From positions 1 through 34,699 of the forward strand of contig JAUHYL010000043.1 in the NCBI GenBank assembly GCA_030426545.1: a stretch of 34,699 bases of DNA, given 5' to 3'. The translations under genes were made by a program, and so were the position numbers. The DNA is from Gammaproteobacteria bacterium. Lineage in GTDB: Bacteria; Pseudomonadota; Gammaproteobacteria; Pseudomonadales; Halieaceae. The notes beneath the pieces were generated by a model. That model made no database searches. It was not told the origin of the DNA and saw only the letters and a list, made by a program, of their open reading frames with translations. Shown piece after piece: positions 6,043 to 14,465 of this stretch (within the stretch, counting starts at the first letter, position 1; each line of letters opens with the position of its first letter).

Positions 6043-7223
6043 TGCGACGGGTACCACATCTGCTGACGGCGCTGGCCCTGCTGTTCTGTGCCGTAGCAAC
6101 CGCCGACAACGCACAACCGGAAGAAACCGGGCCACGCGTCTGGCAGGTAGGCCCCGAACGCGAGATAAAAGTTCCCAGCGCGGCGGCCAAACTTGCGCGC
6201 AACGGCGACACCGTGGAAATAGACGCAGCGCGCTACTACAACGACTACGCCCACTGGCCCCAGGACAAGCTCACACTGCGTGGCGTGGGCGGTATGGCGC
6301 ACATGGACTCAGATCATCTGATCCCCAATGGCAAGGCAATCTGGATCATCACCGGCGACGGCGTAACCATCGAAAACGTGGAATTTTCCGGGGCGCGTGT
6401 ACACAGCACCAACGGGGCCGGCATTCGCCACAACGGTGGCGACATGCGCCTGCACAACACCTTCTTCCATCACAACGAATTTTCCGTAATGACCGGGCCC
6501 AGCGACAGCGGCAAGATTCATATCAGCAGTTCGCGCTTCTGGTTCCAGCACCGCAATGCGCGCTGGAGCCACGGCATCTACATCGGCAACGTGAAACGCT
6601 TCAGCATCACCGGTAGTCACATTATGGGTACCGACCTTGGCCACCAGATAAAAAGCCGCGCGCGCGAAAATCACATCCTGTACAACCGCATTGAAGATCT
6701 GGCGTACGGCAACGCCAGCCGCCTGGTCGATCTGCCCAACTGCGGCCTGAGCATCGTCATGGGCAACGAAATGCAGCAGGGCAGGCTTACGGACAACACG
6801 GACATCATCGGTTACGGTGCAGAGGGCTGTGAGGACCGCGACGAATCAATGAAACGTCTCTTCGTCTGGCACAACACACTGATCAACGAGGCGGTTGCCG
6901 CGACGCTGGTGCGCAATCACACCAACGCAGAGGCGTTTGTTGCGAACAATCTCGTTTATGGTCGGGCGACCTTTCTGGCAGGCAATGGCAGGCAGGAAAA
7001 CAATCTGCGTTTGGGTCTTCCGCGGAATGATCACCGCCGTTGGCTGCCACCGGCCGGGTCCGGAGCTATCGACGCAGCAAAATTCATCACGGCACCGCCG
7101 TACGCATCACTTCCCTCAAGGGAGTTCCAGCCGCCGCTGGGTATGCGCGAACGCGCGCGAGTGGGCAAACCGGATATCGGCGCGCGCGAAGCGCCTGAAA
7201 ACCTGCAGAAGTCACGCCACTGA
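6042..7223 (+). CDS. Secreted right-handed parallel beta-helix protein
   Basis: This 393-residue protein has a Sec signal peptide (MRRVPHLLTALALLF..., likely cut after ATA before DNA). Its body is made of short repeated coils rich in N, G, I and V (for example GDGVTIENVEFSG, HNTFFHHNEF, HILYNRIEDL). That is typical of right-handed beta-helix folds (pectate-lyase-like and related carbohydrate-active proteins). The C-terminus has the GSGAIDA and PDIGARE phrases often seen at the end of such helices. No specific lyase catalytic set could be assigned. I prefer ATG 6042, overlapping the TGA of the lipoprotein gene as TGATG; a GTG directly before it (6039) would also be in frame. Probably periplasmic or extracellular, and possibly polysaccharide-related. 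Confidence 0.8.
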   Translation: MRRVPHLLTALALLFCAVATADNAQPEETGPRVWQVGPEREIKVPSAAAKLARNGDTVEIDAARYYNDYAHWPQDKLTLRGVGGMAHMDSDHLIPNGKAIWIITGDGVTIENVEFSGARVHSTNGAGIRHNGGDMRLHNTFFHHNEFSVMTGPSDSGKIHISSSRFWFQHRNARWSHGIYIGNVKRFSITGSHIMGTDLGHQIKSRARENHILYNRIEDLAYGNASRLVDLPNCGLSIVMGNEMQQGRLTDNTDIIGYGAEGCEDRDESMKRLFVWHNTLINEAVAATLVRNHTNAEAFVANNLVYGRATFLAGNGRQENNLRLGLPRNDHRRWLPPAGSGAIDAAKFITAPPYASLPSREFQPPLGMRERARVGKPDIGAREAPENLQKSRH

Positions 7224-7264
7224 CGCGCCGCCGTGCACTACTGAACGAGCCTCGCGGCATCCTG

Positions 7265-8164
7265 CTAGCCAGCGGCGATATTACCGTGACAGCTCAACTG
7301 GCGGTCTATCGCAAACCACGGTAGACCCAGCTCCTGCAACCAGCCCAGCGCCTCTTCAGCCGGCTTGAGCATGGCGATCGTTGCGGAGCTACCTGCCACC
7401 AGGCACTGCGGCGCCAGAATACTCACCGCAATAAGGCCGCGCACCGGCCAGCCGGTGTGCGGATGCAGGATATGACCATAACGCTCTCCCTCAATCAGCA
7501 TGCAGCGTTCGTAGTCGCCACTGCTGGCCAGCCCGCCGCCAGATAAAGAGACGTTGGCGATAGCCTGTTCACGCTCCAGCGGGTGACGAATGCCGATGGG
7601 CCAACCGGCCTGTCCTGCCGGCGCGCCGGTGGCTGCCATATCACCCGCCAGATCCACCAGCGCGCAAGCGGCGCCGTGTTCCCGCAATTTTGCTGCAGCG
7701 CTGTCCGCCGCGTATTCCTTCACGCAACCGCCGAAATCAATCTCCATCCCCTCGCGCGCAAGGCTTACCGCACCTTCCTGCCAACGCACCAGTGACCAGT
7801 CGACCAGCGGCAGCAGTGCATTCAAAGCGTCGGCATGAGGCAGGCAACCGGATTTGAAATCCCATGCACGGCGCAGCACGCCCGACGTGAGATCGAACAG
7901 GCCGGCGCTTTCGCGCCAGGCGGTGTCGGCATAGTTCAGGAGGGCGACGGTTTCAGCGTCTACGGGAATCGGCTCGCCGCTGCCGGCGGCGCGATTAATC
8001 CGCGCAGTAAGGGAATCTTCCCGGTAGCGACTGAATTTGCTTTCCAGCCGTTCGACTTCCGCAACGGCGGCAGAGATGGCAGACCGGGCCATGGATTCGT
8101 CCTCGGCATCCAGCCGAATCCGACAGGGTCCGCCCATGGCTTTGAAGCTGTGCTCTACGCGCAT
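7265..8164 (-). CDS. ApbE-family FAD:protein FMN transferase (divergent)
   Basis: ApbE proteins transfer FMN from FAD to Ser/Thr of periplasmic redox proteins. This 299-residue protein shows the family order: an N-terminal MGGPCRI near residue 10, DLTSG near 91, DFGGCVKEYAAD (143-154, variant of the usual GGxxKGY), SGDYER (215-220), HILHPHTGWP (231-240) and a C-terminal VAGSSAT. In classical ApbE the last motif reads AD..AT and its Asp binds Mg2+; here G258 stands in that place while T262 remains. There is no signal peptide or lipobox, unlike many ApbE enzymes, so it may be cytosolic. The tracked frame begins at TTG 8170, but ATG 8164 gives the natural N-terminus. It is the last gene of the minus-strand cluster, 33 bases after the DUF3570 gene. 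No FMN-acceptor domain was seen in the window. Confidence 0.88.
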   Translation of the reverse strand: MRVEHSFKAMGGPCRIRLDAEDESMARSAISAAVAEVERLESKFSRYREDSLTARINRAAGSGEPIPVDAETVALLNYADTAWRESAGLFDLTSGVLRRAWDFKSGCLPHADALNALLPLVDWSLVRWQEGAVSLAREGMEIDFGGCVKEYAADSAAAKLREHGAACALVDLAGDMAATGAPAGQAGWPIGIRHPLEREQAIANVSLSGGGLASSGDYERCMLIEGERYGHILHPHTGWPVRGLIAVSILAPQCLVAGSSATIAMLKPAEEALGWLQELGLPWFAIDRQLSCHGNIAAG

Positions 8165-8197
8165 CGCCAAAGCCTGGCAGCAGGGCGGGTGGCGCGC

Positions 8198-9376
8198 CTA
8201 CTTGAAGACGTAGTTAACGCCGACGCTGTAACGCCAGAAATCCACCAGCCCGGGTGCGTCATCGCCACTGTACAGTCCGTAGGCCTCATCGCTCTTGTAG
8301 CGCTCCGCCGTGGCGTTCAATGTCCAATTGCCAATCGTTTTATTGCCGCGCAGGCCATAGGTAAAAGCGCCGAAAGTGGACAGTCGATAATCATCGGCAT
8401 AGTACTCCTGGCTGGTATCGGCCACCACGTCGAAAAACTCCGCCGCGTCCTGCGTGTAGTACCGGGCAAACGGCACCAGCTGAATATCGTTCGACAGGTT
8501 CTGGTACCAGGCCACGTCCAGCGTATGCGAAGTGACATCCCAATCGTCGTCGAAGTAACGGTAGTCGACATGCAGGGCCGCGTCGTGATCTTCAAAGAAG
8601 CGCCGGTAACCCGCCCCCAGTGTCCACTCCTCGCGTTCGTCCGGCCGATTGTCGCGCGACTTGTAGGGATCGGTGAGGAAACCTTCGCGATAGGTATAGC
8701 TGAGCCCAAAGCGTACGATGGCGCGTTTGCTGATAATTTGTGACACACCCACCCACGCCGAGCGAATGTCTTTGCTGTCTTTCAGCGTATTGGTAGGCAC
8801 AGATCCCTGAGTAGGCTCGATCTGGTCATCTGAAGCGCTGATAGCAGCGCTGTAGGTACGCATGCCATCGGCACTGTTGAACGAGCCGTCGAGACTGAAG
8901 GCGTCGGAATCGTAATCGTCTTCCTCGGAATTGGTGTAATTGAAGCCCGCGTTGCCGCGATCAAAATAGTAGCGCGTGGTAACACTGACCTCGGTGCGCG
9001 AGTCTTCAATACTCGCCCCGCTCATAATGACCTTCGGGTCGCCGTTGGGGCTCTCGCCGACAAACCAGGGCGAGGCTCCACTCATGTCTTCCCACTGCAC
9101 ATCCAGCGCCACCGACCAGCTATCGGCGACCGGAGCCAGCAGGTGGAACTGTGCCACATCAATGTCGTAGCGCTCACTCCCGCCGCCGAAGGCGCGGCGC
9201 CCCGGAATATCATCTTCTGCGTACTTGCTATACCGTATGCCCAGTTCCGTGTATTCCGGTGGGGCGTCCGCCTGTGCGGCCTGGTAAGCCGGAAGCAACA
9301 ATGCACTGGAAGTCAGCGCAAGTAGCGTGGCATTGCGCTCGTCCTGTTTCTTACCGGTTTTGTCGTAAGCAGCCAT
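8198..9376 (-). CDS. DUF3570 outer-membrane beta-barrel protein
   Basis: This 392-residue protein has a long polar N-region followed by a hydrophobic signal (LLALTSSALLLPAY) cut near AQA/DAP. The remainder is alternating, Tyr/Asp-rich amphipathic strands ending in YSVGVNYVFK, typical of outer-membrane barrels. I recognise it as DUF3570, a family of unknown function that tends to be encoded beside DUF4266, ApbE and thioredoxin-like proteins; this is recalled and not checked. Its ATG overlaps the TGA of the DUF4266 gene (TGATG on the minus strand), so the two are translationally coupled. Likely roles are a pore or scaffold for the lipoprotein partners. No transport substrate can be read from the sequence. 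Confidence 0.85.
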   Translation of the reverse strand: MAAYDKTGKKQDERNATLLALTSSALLLPAYQAAQADAPPEYTELGIRYSKYAEDDIPGRRAFGGGSERYDIDVAQFHLLAPVADSWSVALDVQWEDMSGASPWFVGESPNGDPKVIMSGASIEDSRTEVSVTTRYYFDRGNAGFNYTNSEEDDYDSDAFSLDGSFNSADGMRTYSAAISASDDQIEPTQGSVPTNTLKDSKDIRSAWVGVSQIISKRAIVRFGLSYTYREGFLTDPYKSRDNRPDEREEWTLGAGYRRFFEDHDAALHVDYRYFDDDWDVTSHTLDVAWYQNLSNDIQLVPFARYYTQDAAEFFDVVADTSQEYYADDYRLSTFGAFTYGLRGNKTIGNWTLNATAERYKSDEAYGLYSGDDAPGLVDFWRYSVGVNYVFK

Positions 9377-9582
9377 CAGTTACACCCGCAGCCGCCGCCA
9401 GCGGCGCCTGTGCCGCCTGAGGAGGCCTCCTTACTGGCATGGATCTGGGCGCGCATGACCCCTTCCATGGTATCGGGTTGCCACTGCATTTCAGCTTTAG
9501 CAAGGGTGCCGCGCTCCCAGGGTTGCACTGTTTCGCAACCGCAAAGCGCGGCGACCAACAACAGGCCGGTAATATACTTCAC
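9376..9582 (-). CDS. DUF4266 small lipoprotein with C-terminal GGGCGCN
   Basis: This 68-residue protein has a lipoprotein signal (LLLVAALCGC, lipidated Cys16), then the QPWERGTLAKAEM block and HASKEA. It ends in a glycine-rich tail GGGCGCN with C65 and C67. I recognise DUF4266, a short lipoprotein family paired with DUF3570. The start is GTG at 9582, preceded by AGGAG about nine bases upstream; TlpA stops only four bases before it. The C-terminal Cys-Gly-Cys is a good candidate for metal binding, a disulfide or a covalent modification. The neighbouring thioredoxin could reduce it. Function is unknown. Confidence 0.85.
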   Translation of the reverse strand: MKYITGLLLVAALCGCETVQPWERGTLAKAEMQWQPDTMEGVMRAQIHASKEASSGGTGAAGGGCGCN

Positions 9583-9586
9583 TTTA

Positions 9587-10120
9587 TTATTCTCCTAGCA
9601 GTTCAAGCACGGCGGCGCGCAACTTCTCGCCGTCGCTCTTTTTGTACCCCTGGTGGATATGACGCACTACGCCGGCTCTGTCCAACAGGTAACCGGTAGG
9701 CATGCCGAGAACACCGAATGCCTGGGGCGTTACGCCATTGCCGTCGCGTACTATCGGGTATGTGACGGGGGATTCCGCCAGAAATTCCAGCGCATCGTCA
9801 GCGTCTTCATCGACATTCACCGCAAGCACTTCAAAGCCGCGCTCACCCAGTTCCTGTCGGATCGCCTCGAGTTGCGGAAAAGACACGCGGCAGGGCCCAC
9901 ACCAGGAAGCCCAGAAGTCCACGTACACCACGTTGCCGCGCAGGGACTCGAGTGACACAGATTCACCGCCGGGCAAGGCCGGCAGCACAAGCTCAGGAGC
10001 GGGCTGACCAACCACTGCACCGCCAGCCCGGGCTTCGGGGGATAGCACTGGCGCGAAAACCAAAGACAGCGACAGTACGAGGGCCAATACAGGCCCTCGC
10101 ATCACTTTAACGTTCAACAT
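9587..10120 (-). CDS. TlpA/ResA-like thioredoxin-fold thiol oxidoreductase
   Basis: This is a 177-residue exported thioredoxin-fold protein. A signal peptide (hydrophobic core about residues 9-26, cut near ARA/GG) precedes a TlpA-like domain. The domain has VDFWASWCGPC (C74, C77), the VNVDED segment and a cis-proline loop GMPTGYLLD. Such proteins reduce disulfides in the periplasm, often on apocytochromes c or copper proteins. That fits its position directly after a gene encoding a haem-c and copper protein. The ATG at 10120 lies inside the end of that upstream gene (14-base overlap); a second in-frame ATG at 10102 would remove the overlap and also leave a complete signal peptide. Only four bases separate it from the DUF4266 gene. 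Confidence 0.9.
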   Translation of the reverse strand: MLNVKVMRGPVLALVLSLSLVFAPVLSPEARAGGAVVGQPAPELVLPALPGGESVSLESLRGNVVYVDFWASWCGPCRVSFPQLEAIRQELGERGFEVLAVNVDEDADDALEFLAESPVTYPIVRDGNGVTPQAFGVLGMPTGYLLDRAGVVRHIHQGYKKSDGEKLRAAVLELLGE

Positions 10121-12656
10121 CGAGCTTCAGCAGGGTCCACGTGTTGTAGCCGTGATTGTGCAGGTGATACTCCACCACGCTACCGGCTGGCGCATCGAAA
10201 TCCACAGGAATGCGCAGATCGAAAATTTCTGCATCGCTGGGTATGTCGACATTGGCCTGCCACACCACGTTGCCATCCACCGTGATAGCAGCGTGGGCAC
10301 TCGCTGGCCGATTGAACGCCAGGTTGCCGTGCCACAGCACGAGGTGCAGCGTGTCGCCCGCGCTGATGGGTGCCAGGCTTGGCTGCGCGACAGAAAGGTA
10401 ATTGCAGAAGCCGGTCTCCACTTCCAGCGCACCGTCTTCGTTATACCAGCTGTTGTCGGGACACTCGACTGTGCCCGGGCGGTGAGCCGCGAGGCTGTCA
10501 TCGGCAGCGCTCTGATACTGCCAGCTGTTCACATCAATCAACGCGTCGGCGTCCACCTGTTCGCTGTCAACGACTTCGATGTCCACAGAGTGCTCAATGC
10601 CCAGTGCGTGGTGATCGTTACCCCGCAGGCTGACGCGCAGGTTGTGCATTCCCGGCGCAAGGTCCTCCGGCAACTGGAAATAGTACTTCGCATCCCAGGC
10701 CGTGAGGTGCTCCGCGTTGTCGTCGTCGGTATCCAGATAGACATGGTAGTGGCCGGCGTAAACACCCGAGTGATCATCACCCTCGCCGCCATGCCCCATG
10801 CTGTCATCGTGCGCCGCATCGGCGTCGTGATCGTGCTCGGCGTCGTGATCGTGGTCGCCGTCGTCATCATGATCCACGTGCGACCCCGGCTCCATCAGGG
10901 TGAAGTTTGTAAACAGCAACTCCAGCGGCACGAGATCCCCGGCCCTGAACTTCTGCCGGTATGACGGTGTGTCGATGTGCACGCTGGCCTGGTAACTGTA
11001 ATCGTAGCCCTCGGCCGGTACCGTCATGAGGATATTCATCAGGCACATCTCATCGCCGGTGCCGTCGCCCCATTCCACATCGCGCGCTTTCTGTTGCACG
11101 CCATTGAGGATGACCTGATTGGCATCGGTATTGTCCCAGGTGCACTCCAGCCGGATCATGTCGTTGGGCTTCACCAGCAACTCACGCTCCAGCAGGTAGG
11201 TGCTCTGCCAGTTGAAATCCCAGTCGCGGATATCGAGGATCACCTGTTCGGTGCCGTTCTCGCGTATCAGCGTGGTGCGGCCTGTCGTCGCCAGGTTGTG
11301 CATATGCAGGAAGCCGGTGTGCATCGCCCAGGTGTCCTGCTCCTCCACACCGGCGGGGCCACCAAACAAACGCGCCAGGACAAAGGCTGGCACCTGGAAA
11401 GAATGGTGCACATTCGGCTCGCCGGCGGGAATCGGCATACCGCCAGAGCGCAACCAGAACGGATTGGTAAACAGGAACCCGCTGGAGGGGCGCTCTACCT
11501 CGTCCTGGGTGGCAATCAGAATCTGTGACTGATCCGGCGTTGGTTCGGCAACCAGCGTGTTGTAGTGCATCTGCACAACCAGCAGGGAGCCGGGTTCAAT
11601 ACCGATGCCGGTACCTTCAGGCGCCTGGCCACCCGGTGCACCGGGCACCCAGCCGCCGATCTGCCGCGGCAGGGGCGCACCCTCGATACCACCCGAGAGC
11701 AGACACGGCCAGCCCGGGTTACCGTCGCGACCGCTTGCCCCGGCGTAGTAATGCACGTCTTCAGGATCAATGATGTTGACGATGACATGGTGCACTTCTT
11801 CCACCTGGTCCGGAATCACATCAACCGCTTTCACATAAGCCACATAGTCCAGTGGCCAGTCGATGGCAAAGCAGCGGTGATCGTCCGGCTGCAGGGTGGG
11901 TGTGTAAGGTTCGGGCAGCGCCACCTTGATGTTGTACTCAGGCGGGTCGCGCAAATCCTCGTCAGGCCCGGGCGGCTGGTACTCGGCGGGATCACCCTCG
12001 GCCATTGCGCCCGACAACCAGTTGACCAGCTTGTACTCCTGCTCGGGCGCCATCACGCGCGAGTGCAGGAAGCGGCTGTAGCCCGGCGTGGGAGGCCAGG
12101 GGGGCATGGTGCCGTTTTCCACCGCGAAAGCCGCGGCGGCGGCGACATCTCTCACTTTCTGGTAACTGTCCAGCGGGAACGGTGCCACGCCACCCTCGAC
12201 GTGGCAGCCAACGCAGTACTCTTCGATAATCGCGCGCGTATCGCCGTGGTAGGTAAAGCCTTCATCGGCGCCATAGGGTGCCTGGGACGGATCGCCCAGC
12301 GGGGCACCCTCGGCAATCCACTGCCGCAGCAGCGCGGACTCGCTGTCGCTAAGATCGGCAAAGCCCTGTGGCGGCATCGTGCCGCTCTGCAGAACAAAGT
12401 CGATAGCGGACCGTTTGGCGTGCACCTCGTCGTAGGTGTCCAGCGGGAAGGGTGCGAGGGGGCTGCCATCGGTGTGGCACGACGTACAGTAACGGTCCAC
12501 CAGGGGCTCGGCGGCGCTGTACCAAGATATCTCCGGGGGACCTTCGCTCTGCACCCCCACCTGGGCTCCACCACCAGAGGACGAACCTCCACCACAACCT
12601 GCGACAGCCACAGCGGCAGACACTGAGACCATTTTTAGCAATGTATTTATATTCAT
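10107..12656 (-). CDS. Lipoprotein fusing two haem-c motifs to a PHM-like dicopper monooxygenase core
   Basis: The predicted lipoprotein has 849 residues (lipobox VAGC, Cys21, then a Gly/Ser linker). Two cytochrome-c-like modules follow: C57-TS-C60-H61 and C148-VG-C151-H152, each with a downstream GTMPP that may supply an axial Met (M94, M184). Residues about 240-560 match copper type II ascorbate-dependent monooxygenases (Pfam Cu2_monooxygen and Cu2_monoox_C; eukaryotic PHM and dopamine beta-hydroxylase). The ligands align as H289-H290 and H364 for CuH, and H451-x-H453 and M537 (DEMC) for CuM. An Asp/His-rich stretch spans about 593-630, then a GHYHVYLD domain and a C-terminal beta domain (about 738-849). 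Family members hydroxylate C-H bonds with O2. The haems could feed electrons internally. I chose ATG 12656 over TTG 12701 because it gives a clean lipoprotein signal. It leads a five-gene cluster. Substrate unknown. Confidence 0.88.
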   Translation of the reverse strand: MNINTLLKMVSVSAAVAVAGCGGGSSSGGGAQVGVQSEGPPEISWYSAAEPLVDRYCTSCHTDGSPLAPFPLDTYDEVHAKRSAIDFVLQSGTMPPQGFADLSDSESALLRQWIAEGAPLGDPSQAPYGADEGFTYHGDTRAIIEEYCVGCHVEGGVAPFPLDSYQKVRDVAAAAAFAVENGTMPPWPPTPGYSRFLHSRVMAPEQEYKLVNWLSGAMAEGDPAEYQPPGPDEDLRDPPEYNIKVALPEPYTPTLQPDDHRCFAIDWPLDYVAYVKAVDVIPDQVEEVHHVIVNIIDPEDVHYYAGASGRDGNPGWPCLLSGGIEGAPLPRQIGGWVPGAPGGQAPEGTGIGIEPGSLLVVQMHYNTLVAEPTPDQSQILIATQDEVERPSSGFLFTNPFWLRSGGMPIPAGEPNVHHSFQVPAFVLARLFGGPAGVEEQDTWAMHTGFLHMHNLATTGRTTLIRENGTEQVILDIRDWDFNWQSTYLLERELLVKPNDMIRLECTWDNTDANQVILNGVQQKARDVEWGDGTGDEMCLMNILMTVPAEGYDYSYQASVHIDTPSYRQKFRAGDLVPLELLFTNFTLMEPGSHVDHDDDGDHDHDAEHDHDADAAHDDSMGHGGEGDDHSGVYAGHYHVYLDTDDDNAEHLTAWDAKYYFQLPEDLAPGMHNLRVSLRGNDHHALGIEHSVDIEVVDSEQVDADALIDVNSWQYQSAADDSLAAHRPGTVECPDNSWYNEDGALEVETGFCNYLSVAQPSLAPISAGDTLHLVLWHGNLAFNRPASAHAAITVDGNVVWQANVDIPSDAEIFDLRIPVDFDAPAGSVVEYHLHNHGYNTWTLLKLDVER

Positions 12657-12753
12657 AGCGAGAAAACTAGCACATTTTGACTGCACGGTCAGCCCCGGCA
12701 AAAAAATTTCACAGACCGCAGCCCGCGCGGCCGAAATCGCTCTAAGCCATTGA

Positions 12754-13077
12754 TTATTCTACAGACAATAGCGAGTCCACCGTCTCCAGCGCGACCACCA
12801 GCTCAGTACAGGCAAGTCCGCTGCCGCGAAAGTACTCCTCGGCCATGGGCGCTATCCCGCACCGTCTGGGCAACTCGGACTCTGCTTCCAGCAGGCTGTA
12901 CATCCGGGGCAGGAAGACAAACTGCAGCCACTGCGGCAAGGTCAGGGTATCGATACAAAAAGGTTGCGTGGAGGCCAGCGCCGCCGCCGGGGGTGGGCTG
13001 TGATCCCATTGATCGAGTTGACGCAGTTGCGCCTCGATGTCGATCAGGGTGGCGGCGATATCCGTTTGCAGGCTCAT
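12754..13077 (-). CDS. yqcC: YqcC family protein (DUF446)
   Basis: This 107-residue protein matches E. coli YqcC in its central block: STQPFCIDTL, then WLQFVFLPRMYSLLE, then ELPRRCGIAPMAEEYF. The N-terminal 30 residues form a helix with regularly spaced Ile/Leu. The function of the family is not established; in enterobacteria the gene sits beside a tRNA pseudouridine synthase gene, but that partner is absent here. It starts only five bases after the sulfatase stop, so the two are probably co-transcribed. A 97-base gap separates it from the dicopper-haem lipoprotein gene. It appears complete and cytosolic. Confidence 0.85.
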   Translation of the reverse strand: MSLQTDIAATLIDIEAQLRQLDQWDHSPPPAAALASTQPFCIDTLTLPQWLQFVFLPRMYSLLEAESELPRRCGIAPMAEEYFRGSGLACTELVVALETVDSLLSVE

Positions 13078-13082
13078 TCGTT

Positions 13083-14465
13083 TTACTGCTGCGGCGCGCC
13101 GGGCGCTAACGGTGAGGACGCCGCTTCAGGTCGAAAGTCAAAGTCGCCGGTGGAGCGCCGCCACTCACGCAGTTGCGCAGCCATCTCGCGGCGCACCGGC
13201 GCATACGTGGCGTCGTCGGCGAGATTGCGAAAATCAACACCGTCATCACTGACGGCAAACAACTCCACAGCGGGTCGCTCATCGGCGAAACAGGCTTCCT
13301 GTGTTTCGGTCAGCCGCCCTTCCCTGTGTGCCTTTACCAGCGCCTTGTGCACAATCGTGCTGCCGAAGGGCGTGTCTCTGCAATCGCCGCCCCGGGGATA
13401 CTGATTTTCCTTGTACAGGAAGTTTAGCGATCGCACGGCTCTCTCGTGTGCTGGCTCCACATGCCAGTTGCGCTCGGCAAAGACGTAATCCCTGAGCTTG
13501 CGCTGCGGCTCAGCAAACACCCGGGCAAACGAGCTGCCCTCTATATCCGCCGGGACAGATGCGCCCGCCAACTCCAACAGCGTAGGTGCGACGTCGACCG
13601 CACTCAATAAAAAAGGGTAGTCGGTGGGGACGGTAACACCCTTGGGCCAATGCACAATGAAAGGCGTCTTGATGCCAGCGTCATACAGCGACAGCTTTCC
13701 CCGGGGAAAGGGGCGGCCGTTGTCCGACATGATCAGCACCAACGTATCATCCAAAATACCCTGCTGCGCCAGTTCTTCGCGAACAAGGCCAACATCGCGA
13801 TCAAAGCTCGAAACTTCAAGGTAGTAGGCAAGCAGCTCCCTGCGCAATCCCTTGCCATCCACGTAGCCGGCGGGAAGCTCAAAGGAACGGTGATCGTAGT
13901 ACCGGGCGAACGCCTCGCCGCGATCATGTGGCCGGTGCGGATCGTGCGCCGCCAGCCACAGGAAAAAGGGCTTGTTTTTCGGCCTGTCACGCAGGAGCTC
14001 CAGCCAGTCGGAACTCACGTCATCGTATGTAACATCCCGCACTACGTCGAACTGGCCTTTTACCAACCCTCCGATGTGCCACTTGCCGGCGGCACCGGTG
14101 AAATACCCCGCCGCTCCCAGAAGCTGGCCCAGGGTGGCTTCAGATGCTGGCAGCTTCTGGTGCAGATTTACCAGTCCATTGGAATGGGGATACTTCCCCG
14201 TAAGGATGCTTGCGCGACTGGCACTGCAGGAGCTGGTGGTGAGGAAGGCACTCGTAAAGCGCATTCCGCGATCGGCAAGTTCATCTATGTTCGGCGTGTA
14301 GACATCGTTGTTGCCGTAGGCGCCTATGTCATTCCAACTCAGATCATCAGCGACGATGACAATGAAGTTCGGGCGGGACTGCTGCACAGAGATCGCATCA
14401 ATCGTCAACAGCACTGCAGCAACCAGCAGCAAGACAATGGGCAACACCATGCGCAAACGATTCAA
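13083..14465 (-). CDS. Sulfatase (type I, formylglycine-dependent), membrane-anchored or secreted
   Basis: Type I sulfatases hydrolyse sulfate esters using a formylglycine made from Cys or Ser. Numbered from TTG 14465, the protein has 460 residues: a hydrophobic N-terminal segment (about residues 6-23), then PNFIVIVADDLSW with metal ligands D40 and D41. The modification motif is C80-S-A-S-R84 (Ala in place of the commoner Pro), followed by LTGKYPHSNG, and GKWHIG with K128 and H130. Further on are MSDNG and an AGIKTPFIVHWPKG segment. The frame opens at GTG 14516. ATG 14450 lies inside the hydrophobic region, and TTG 14465 has GGAGA five bases upstream, so I prefer it. No formylglycine-generating enzyme gene is in the window. 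The CSASR form resembles heparan-sulfamidase-like branches, so a sulfated polysaccharide is a plausible but unproven substrate. Confidence 0.88.
   Translation of the reverse strand: MNRLRMVLPIVLLLVAAVLLTIDAISVQQSRPNFIVIVADDLSWNDIGAYGNNDVYTPNIDELADRGMRFTSAFLTTSSCSASRASILTGKYPHSNGLVNLHQKLPASEATLGQLLGAAGYFTGAAGKWHIGGLVKGQFDVVRDVTYDDVSSDWLELLRDRPKNKPFFLWLAAHDPHRPHDRGEAFARYYDHRSFELPAGYVDGKGLRRELLAYYLEVSSFDRDVGLVREELAQQGILDDTLVLIMSDNGRPFPRGKLSLYDAGIKTPFIVHWPKGVTVPTDYPFLLSAVDVAPTLLELAGASVPADIEGSSFARVFAEPQRKLRDYVFAERNWHVEPAHERAVRSLNFLYKENQYPRGGDCRDTPFGSTIVHKALVKAHREGRLTETQEACFADERPAVELFAVSDDGVDFRNLADDATYAPVRREMAAQLREWRRSTGDFDFRPEAASSPLAPGAPQQ

Follow-up and report, generated by a model that had tools for sequence, protein, structure and literature searches.

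How might a copper oxygenase in the envelope of a marine bacterium obtain its electrons? The question is raised by a stretch of 34,699 nucleotides from a gammaproteobacterium of the family Halieaceae (assembly GCA_030426545.1, contig JAUHYL010000043.1; hereafter the window), whose gene set also suggests an answer. Five minus-strand genes, running from 12656 to 7265, encode in this order a PHM-like dihaem lipoprotein (hereafter the copper protein), a TlpA-type thioredoxin, a DUF4266 lipoprotein, a DUF3570 protein and an ApbE flavin transferase. Animal PHM takes its electrons from ascorbate; PHM-type copper sites use O2 and need an electron supply, a monooxygenase taking two electrons per O2. 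We propose, with a probability of about 0.5, that the five genes form an operon for an electron-delivery line, whose recipient would be a copper monooxygenase with two haem domains located at the outer membrane. The open reading frames (ORFs) and the features around them are as follows.

10107..12656, minus strand: PHM-like dihaem lipoprotein gene (ORF 10107-12701; the ATG at 12656 gives 849 residues)
9587..10120, minus strand: TlpA/ResA-like thioredoxin gene with the motif WASWCGPC (ORF and Pfam)
9376..9582, minus strand: DUF4266 lipoprotein gene, 68 residues, with lipobox LCGC (by eye) and the end GGGCGCN (ORF and Pfam)
9379..9399, minus strand: C-terminal GGGCGCN of DUF4266 (pattern)
8198..9376, minus strand: DUF3570 outer-membrane β-barrel, predicted ApbE substrate (Pfam, model and Foldseek)
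7265..8164, minus strand: ApbE flavin transferase gene from ATG; the longest frame, 7265-8170, starts at TTG and is too short at its N-terminus for a signal peptide (ORF and Pfam)
12710..12727, minus strand: weak terminator-like hairpin with T run between a DUF446 gene and the copper gene

The gene content and spacing given in a preliminary description of this DNA were confirmed by ORFs, Pfam and junction lengths. Pfam assigned Cu2_monoox_C (35.7 bits, cut-off 23) and two stretches of Cytochrome_CBB3 (34.5 bits, cut-off 27) to the copper protein, and Redoxin (91.3 bits), DUF4266 (73.6 bits), DUF3570 (190.9 bits) and ApbE (225 bits) to the other four products. The PHM-like and TlpA genes overlap by 14 nucleotides, TlpA and DUF4266 are separated by 4, DUF4266 and DUF3570 overlap by 1 (TGATG), and the gap between DUF3570 and ApbE is 27 (to TTG) or 33 (to ATG). 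The five genes likely form one operon with a single transcript, and the terminator-like hairpin suggests that the copper gene may come first in it; over 6500-13500, intrinsic-terminator-like sites stand at the chance level, with 7 found against 5.5 in shuffles (standard deviation 2.6). The G+C content of the window is 0.56-0.64.

The arrangement goes beyond chance, because the gene order is kept wherever close orthologues of the copper protein occur. Among 140 Halieaceae genomes, with copper-protein classes taken at E 1e-40 or better, a close class (59-73% identity) is present in 12 genomes of 4 genera, and in all 12 the gene lies directly upstream of the module formed by the other four. In 11 of them both are on the same contig; in G063 the linkage is inferred over a contig break, as the start of the module contig encodes 27 residues from the C-terminal end of the copper protein. 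Contig ends partly cut the copper gene in G054, G055, G056 and G064. The 140 genomes yielded no close orthologue separate from the module, and the five genes can be regarded as a conserved unit. Two peptide patterns, applied to 84,980 genomes, collected 71 loci. The close class is represented by pieces in 10 of them, of which 7 are linked and 3 are cut by contig ends.

The copper protein itself is composed of several distinct domains, with the following landmarks.

Residue 21: lipobox cysteine (Cys21), with a Gly-rich tether (by eye)
About residues 45-125 and 134-225: two CxxCH haem domains
12474..12488, minus strand: first haem motif CTSCH, residues 57-61 (C57, C60 and H61 invariant)
12201..12215, minus strand: second haem motif CVGCH, residues 148-152 (C148, C151 and H152 invariant)
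About residues 245-546: PHM-like dicopper monooxygenase core
11787..11792, minus strand: HH, residues 289-290, equivalent of the CuH pair of PHM
11565..11567, minus strand: H364, third CuH ligand
11298..11306, minus strand: HMH (H451 and H453), CuM ligands
11046..11048, minus strand: M537 in GDEMC, the CuM methionine
About residues 556-696: His-rich domain III
About residues 705-846: domain IV

Structural similarity search with the predicted structure (mean predicted local distance difference test score, pLDDT, of 81) returned PHM as the best Foldseek matches, with an E-value of 7e-15. With a 30-sequence profile, human DBH was matched at E 5e-12 and rat PHM at an E-value of about 1.5e-9, the copper ligands being aligned in both; PF01082, the N-terminal domain of PHM and DBH, gave no Pfam match in the copper protein. 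In an alignment of 13 sequences, window included, neither CxxCH motif varies, nor does any ligand of the complete PHM pattern (HH, H, HxH, M); M94 P95 and M184 P185 are likewise invariant. The predicted function is that of a PHM-like dicopper monooxygenase with two putative c-type haem domains. Compared to PHM and DBH (PF03712/PF01082), it shares the predicted fold and all copper-ligand positions, but it is a bacterial lipoprotein in which two haem domains and two further domains are joined to the copper core. The residues R240, N316 and Y318 of PHM, which bind the peptide carboxylate, correspond to F449, L539 and N541 (by eye from alignments), which makes a peptidylglycine an improbable substrate. 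Most of the loci L108-L152 encode single-haem PHM proteins, from Myxococcota, Chloroflexota and other groups. These proteins have one CxxCH domain followed by the PHM core, are 25-40% identical, and lack the second haem domain and mostly also domains III and IV in the same ORF; no flavin module was found around them in the flanking DNA examined.

The remaining four genes, TlpA-DUF4266-DUF3570-ApbE, are an already published flavin-transfer module, and the new part of the gene set is the copper gene. According to Méheust et al. 2021 (PMC8238504), genes for DUF3570, DUF4266, thioredoxin-like proteins and ApbE cluster together, the DUF3570 of another member is flavinylated by ApbE at two [S/T]GA[S/T] sites, and DUF4266 ends in CxC. 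The recurrence of these four, stated in the preliminary description, is thus in print; of 390 genomes sampled evenly across the order, 141 contain DUF4266. The window set resembles the clusters of that paper in the four families, the two SGA-type sites on DUF3570 and the CxC-ending DUF4266, but it is headed by a dihaem PHM lipoprotein, and the model of its DUF3570 is a barrel. Neither copper nor monooxygenase is a word used in the main text of PMC8238504, where outer membrane appears once in another context. The flavinylation motifs, defined after the same paper, are located as follows.

9071..9082, minus strand: first motif SGAS, residues 99-102 of DUF3570
9011..9022, minus strand: second motif SGAS, residues 119-122 of DUF3570

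Both SGAS sites are present at all 12 linked loci, and covalent flavin mononucleotide (FMN) on the window DUF3570 is predicted from them and by analogy with the published member. The DUF3570 model is a β-barrel (mean pLDDT 65, predicted template modelling score 0.64) whose Foldseek matches are outer-membrane barrels; with strands counted back from the C-terminus, both sites would lie in one outer-side loop (97-126). As for the electron carriers, the top NCBIfam match of the window TlpA is ResA, with 92.6 bits and below the cut-off of 170. DsbD is absent from the window cluster, and a complete DsbD, the single match in the genome, is encoded on another contig (G000:C109). In PMC8238504, DsbD belongs to only part of the clusters, 316 clusters of this kind being without it. 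DUF4266 was also considered as a substrate of ApbE, its tail being motif-like (TGAA in the window); this was rejected because the same place varies (SGAA, AGAS, QGAA, GGAA).

In the proposed electron-delivery line, DsbD would reduce TlpA, which would in turn reduce the two cysteines of the CGC near the C-terminus of DUF4266. Electrons would then reach the two FMN that ApbE attaches to the DUF3570 barrel, pass from the barrel to the two haem domains of the copper lipoprotein, and move on from the haems to CuH and CuM, where O2 would be activated and the substrate hydroxylated. The preliminary description spoke of a complete cell-surface oxidation system; both the surface location and the completeness are what we infer. 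Since a monooxygenase needs electrons to be supplied, delivery to the enzyme by the module is more likely than withdrawal from it.

What happened to the copper gene where it is missing? DUF4266 occurs at 71 places in the family, of which 53 were examined (38 window-like and 15 divergent; the 18 left out all belong to genus g22). The 38 window-like loci comprise 12 with the copper gene, 2 with its remnants (G004 and G045), 1 with a DUF1588-type gene (G070) and 23 with none of these. The remnants, obtained from 2 of 22 upstream stretches without the copper gene, are decayed C-terminal pieces of 29 residues (G004, E 1e-8) and 53 residues (G045, E 2e-10), E-values that refer to a search of 34 short stretches; they lie upstream of TlpA, where linked loci have the copper gene. 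Further candidates were dropped: L056, L058, L060 and L062 (E 7e-5 to 0.08) match only the first 39 residues of the over-long L066 frame, which are upstream of the copper gene's start, and L175 and L178 have E-values above 0.5 only. A tree of joined TlpA, DUF3570 and ApbE, built by a quick method from 35 of the 38 loci (L183, L185 and L187 omitted) with g22 as our chosen outgroup, unites the 12 linked loci and the two remnant loci within a single 23-row clade (98 in the Shimodaira-Hasegawa-like approximate likelihood ratio test). The fewest-change count is 4 changes of state, most simply read as a single gain of the copper gene and three losses. Lineages that lost it retain the other four genes, which indicates that these four work without it.

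The module indeed has other haem neighbours. The window's genome carries a second, divergent DUF3570 cluster (G000:C87:18000-34000, L003), which contains a dihaem HzsA-like lipoprotein, an SH3-barrel protein, an outer-membrane protein (OMP) barrel, TlpA, DUF4266 and DUF3570, with ApbE on the other strand; the dihaem lipoprotein matches the hydrazine synthase alpha middle domain with 46.8 bits (cut-off 26.6). The HzsA-like gene is found in all 15 divergent family clusters examined (in one only as a 50-residue end at a contig edge), together with the SH3-barrel gene, the DUF4266 tail, DUF3570 and ApbE, and an OMP barrel was called in 13. Outside the family, a sample of 40 loci of the order, one per genus, without Halieaceae and mostly the best among the DUF4266 matches listed, gave 22 with an HzsA-like gene and 3 with a dihaem DUF1588-type gene followed by a gene of twin-arginine translocation (Tat) type; the GCGCN end of DUF4266, identified by that pattern, is present at all 15 divergent and all 40 order loci. 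With G070 of Halieaceae as the fourth case, the DUF1588-type and Tat-type genes lie directly upstream of TlpA-DUF4266-DUF3570 in four families (L223, L224, L228 and L179), two of the four DUF1588 matches being below the Pfam cut-off. The Tat-type neighbour is DUF1501 in the three scanned and was judged by eye in L228; TlpA was not called in L228, nor ApbE in L223, and ApbE is beyond the contig end in L179. In G366, from another family, the module adjoins a haem lipoprotein that has two domains in common with the copper protein, the haem domain and domain IV; lipoproteins of this type occur in 4 order genomes, and in the other 3 they are not adjacent to the module. Within Halieaceae, DUF4266 is present in 23 of the 26 genomes with the copper protein or related lipoproteins versus 37 of 114 others (Fisher p 1.6e-7), a comparison that ignores shared ancestry and in which two of the 26 (G058 and G059) rest on weak matches.

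Altogether, the four genes have the look of a general module with varying haem enzymes as partners, and the copper enzyme would be the version of Halieaceae. It is even conceivable, and we offer this tentatively as something we would sooner doubt than assert, that the DUF3570 barrel is a general flavin-based outer-membrane socket for dihaem enzymes of the PHM, HzsA-like and DUF1588 types, which here would replace ascorbate for a cell-surface copper monooxygenase.

Other explanations of the locus bear on the same evidence. The set might be a maturation cassette, in which TlpA and DUF4266 keep haem-binding or copper-site cysteines reduced or deliver copper during assembly of the large lipoprotein, the flavin barrel of the operon serving another purpose. 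TlpA/ResA-type proteins act in the assembly of cytochromes and copper sites elsewhere, and the ResA match of TlpA and the Cys-rich tail of DUF4266 would fit; however, this leaves ApbE and the two SGAS sites on DUF3570 unexplained, the module persists without the copper gene, and more distant dihaem copper proteins do without an adjacent module, so that we regard it as unlikely. In several lineages the module has stayed intact although the copper gene was lost, and distant homologues are unlinked; both would also suit a copper gene that is a mere passenger, co-transcribed with the module in one family without interaction of the products. This we consider quite unlikely, given that all 12 close orthologues are linked and none was found elsewhere, and that the module adjoins other dihaem proteins, including, in 1 of 4 order genomes, the G366 lipoprotein with the shared domains. 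Finally, electrons might flow in reverse, with the haem-copper lipoprotein oxidising an extracellular substrate and passing electrons inward via haem and flavin, as c-type haems are common electron exits. Against this stands the electron demand of PHM-type sites, and we hold it to be improbable. In the published model, too, DsbD and thioredoxin-like proteins move electrons outward, although PMC8238504 allows reversal in principle.

The electron-delivery line, our preferred reading, has a number of observations to contend with. A far class of the copper protein (42-47% identity) occurs in 7 family genomes and is linked in none; G010 and G015 (both 74% complete) have no DUF4266 match, and in G005 the downstream side is off the contig and the only DUF4266 of the genome is on another contig. 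None of the 61 other PHM-haem loci, which include six of the seven far-class relatives, has DUF3570, DUF4266 or ApbE nearby, in a search with Halieaceae-based profiles that covered at most 7 kb of flanking DNA per side and at many loci less. The link is restricted to this one family, and within it 23 of the 38 window-like loci are without copper gene, remnant or DUF1588-type partner. The copper-protein tree agrees with the module tree on most pairs but conflicts on G044, placed with g13 and not with g1, so that congruence is partial. Likewise, 15 of the 40 order loci have no upstream haem partner, and the control is unclean, since 5 of 44 other ORFs of at least 600 residues in the order loci also have two CxxCH. 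The DUF3570 model is weak (pLDDT 65), with low confidence in the SGAS loop, and the DUF3570 of the divergent clusters carries one SGA-type site instead of two (15/15, L003 among them). Furthermore, the longest frame of ApbE leaves no room for a signal peptide at 11 of the 12 linked loci, as judged by frame length or by eye, which speaks against simple periplasmic flavinylation; FMN may therefore be attached prior to export, an unusual order of events for a barrel.

The preliminary description had named recurrence across distant genera as support; the conserved neighbourhood holds for the close orthologues in 4 genera, whereas distant homologues of the copper protein are unlinked (0 of 7 far-class and 0 of 61 other loci), and the wider linkage was not borne out. 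A widespread pairing was rejected on the same 61 loci and on full-length matches to the copper protein in only 2 of the 390 order genomes, at most two candidates being scored per genome. As the close class is always linked and its distant relatives are not, we read the pairing as an old arrangement of Halieaceae from which the copper gene was lost repeatedly. A CxxC-motif scan for thioredoxin was negative at all 63 loci of distant PHM homologues (L103-L165). Separately, a planctomycete locus (L155:6356-8308) carries a redoxin domain on the haem-PHM homologue itself.

The proposed line is like the MtrCAB-type porin-cytochrome conduits in principle, in that an outer-membrane barrel joins periplasmic electrons to a haem lipoprotein, but the window barrel would carry covalent flavins and would not house a multihaem cytochrome. 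The Mtr barrel ranks only 45 among many barrels in the Foldseek matches of DUF3570, and we claim no kinship beyond the general barrel fold. If correct, the scheme would give a bacterial PHM-type enzyme an electron source without ascorbate, and covalent flavin on a barrel would join the known routes for electrons across the outer membrane; the haem-copper enzyme fixed in 12 of 12 close orthologues and the two other recurrent dihaem neighbours would be concrete clients of the module. Our literature searches, with subscription papers mostly outside their coverage, found DUF4266 and DUF3570 together in one paper only and the copper pairing in none; within the literature searched, neither a dihaem copper enzyme as fixed first gene nor the wider pattern of dihaem partners was found in print.

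Two observations concern protein leaders. The DUF3570 leader ALTSSALLLPAYQ (window 9281-9319) is almost invariant in an alignment of eight, which is unusual for a signal peptide. In the divergent clusters, inspection by eye shows a hydrophobic leader on 13 of the 15 ApbE proteins, the other two having ambiguous over-long frames.

Parts of the copper protein, namely its haem domain, domain III and domain IV, are also reused elsewhere. L167, L169 and L170 were rejected as a second copper enzyme family: HH, H, HTH and DEM motifs are present, but comparison of their central part with the PHM core gave a profile probability of 0.5% (from shallow profiles) and no Pfam copper domain was matched, so that our claim is limited to the sharing of these three domains. 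L167 (G000:C6:39578-42400) encodes a 951-residue lipoprotein in which these domains stand in another order, the four motifs lying in the central part between them.

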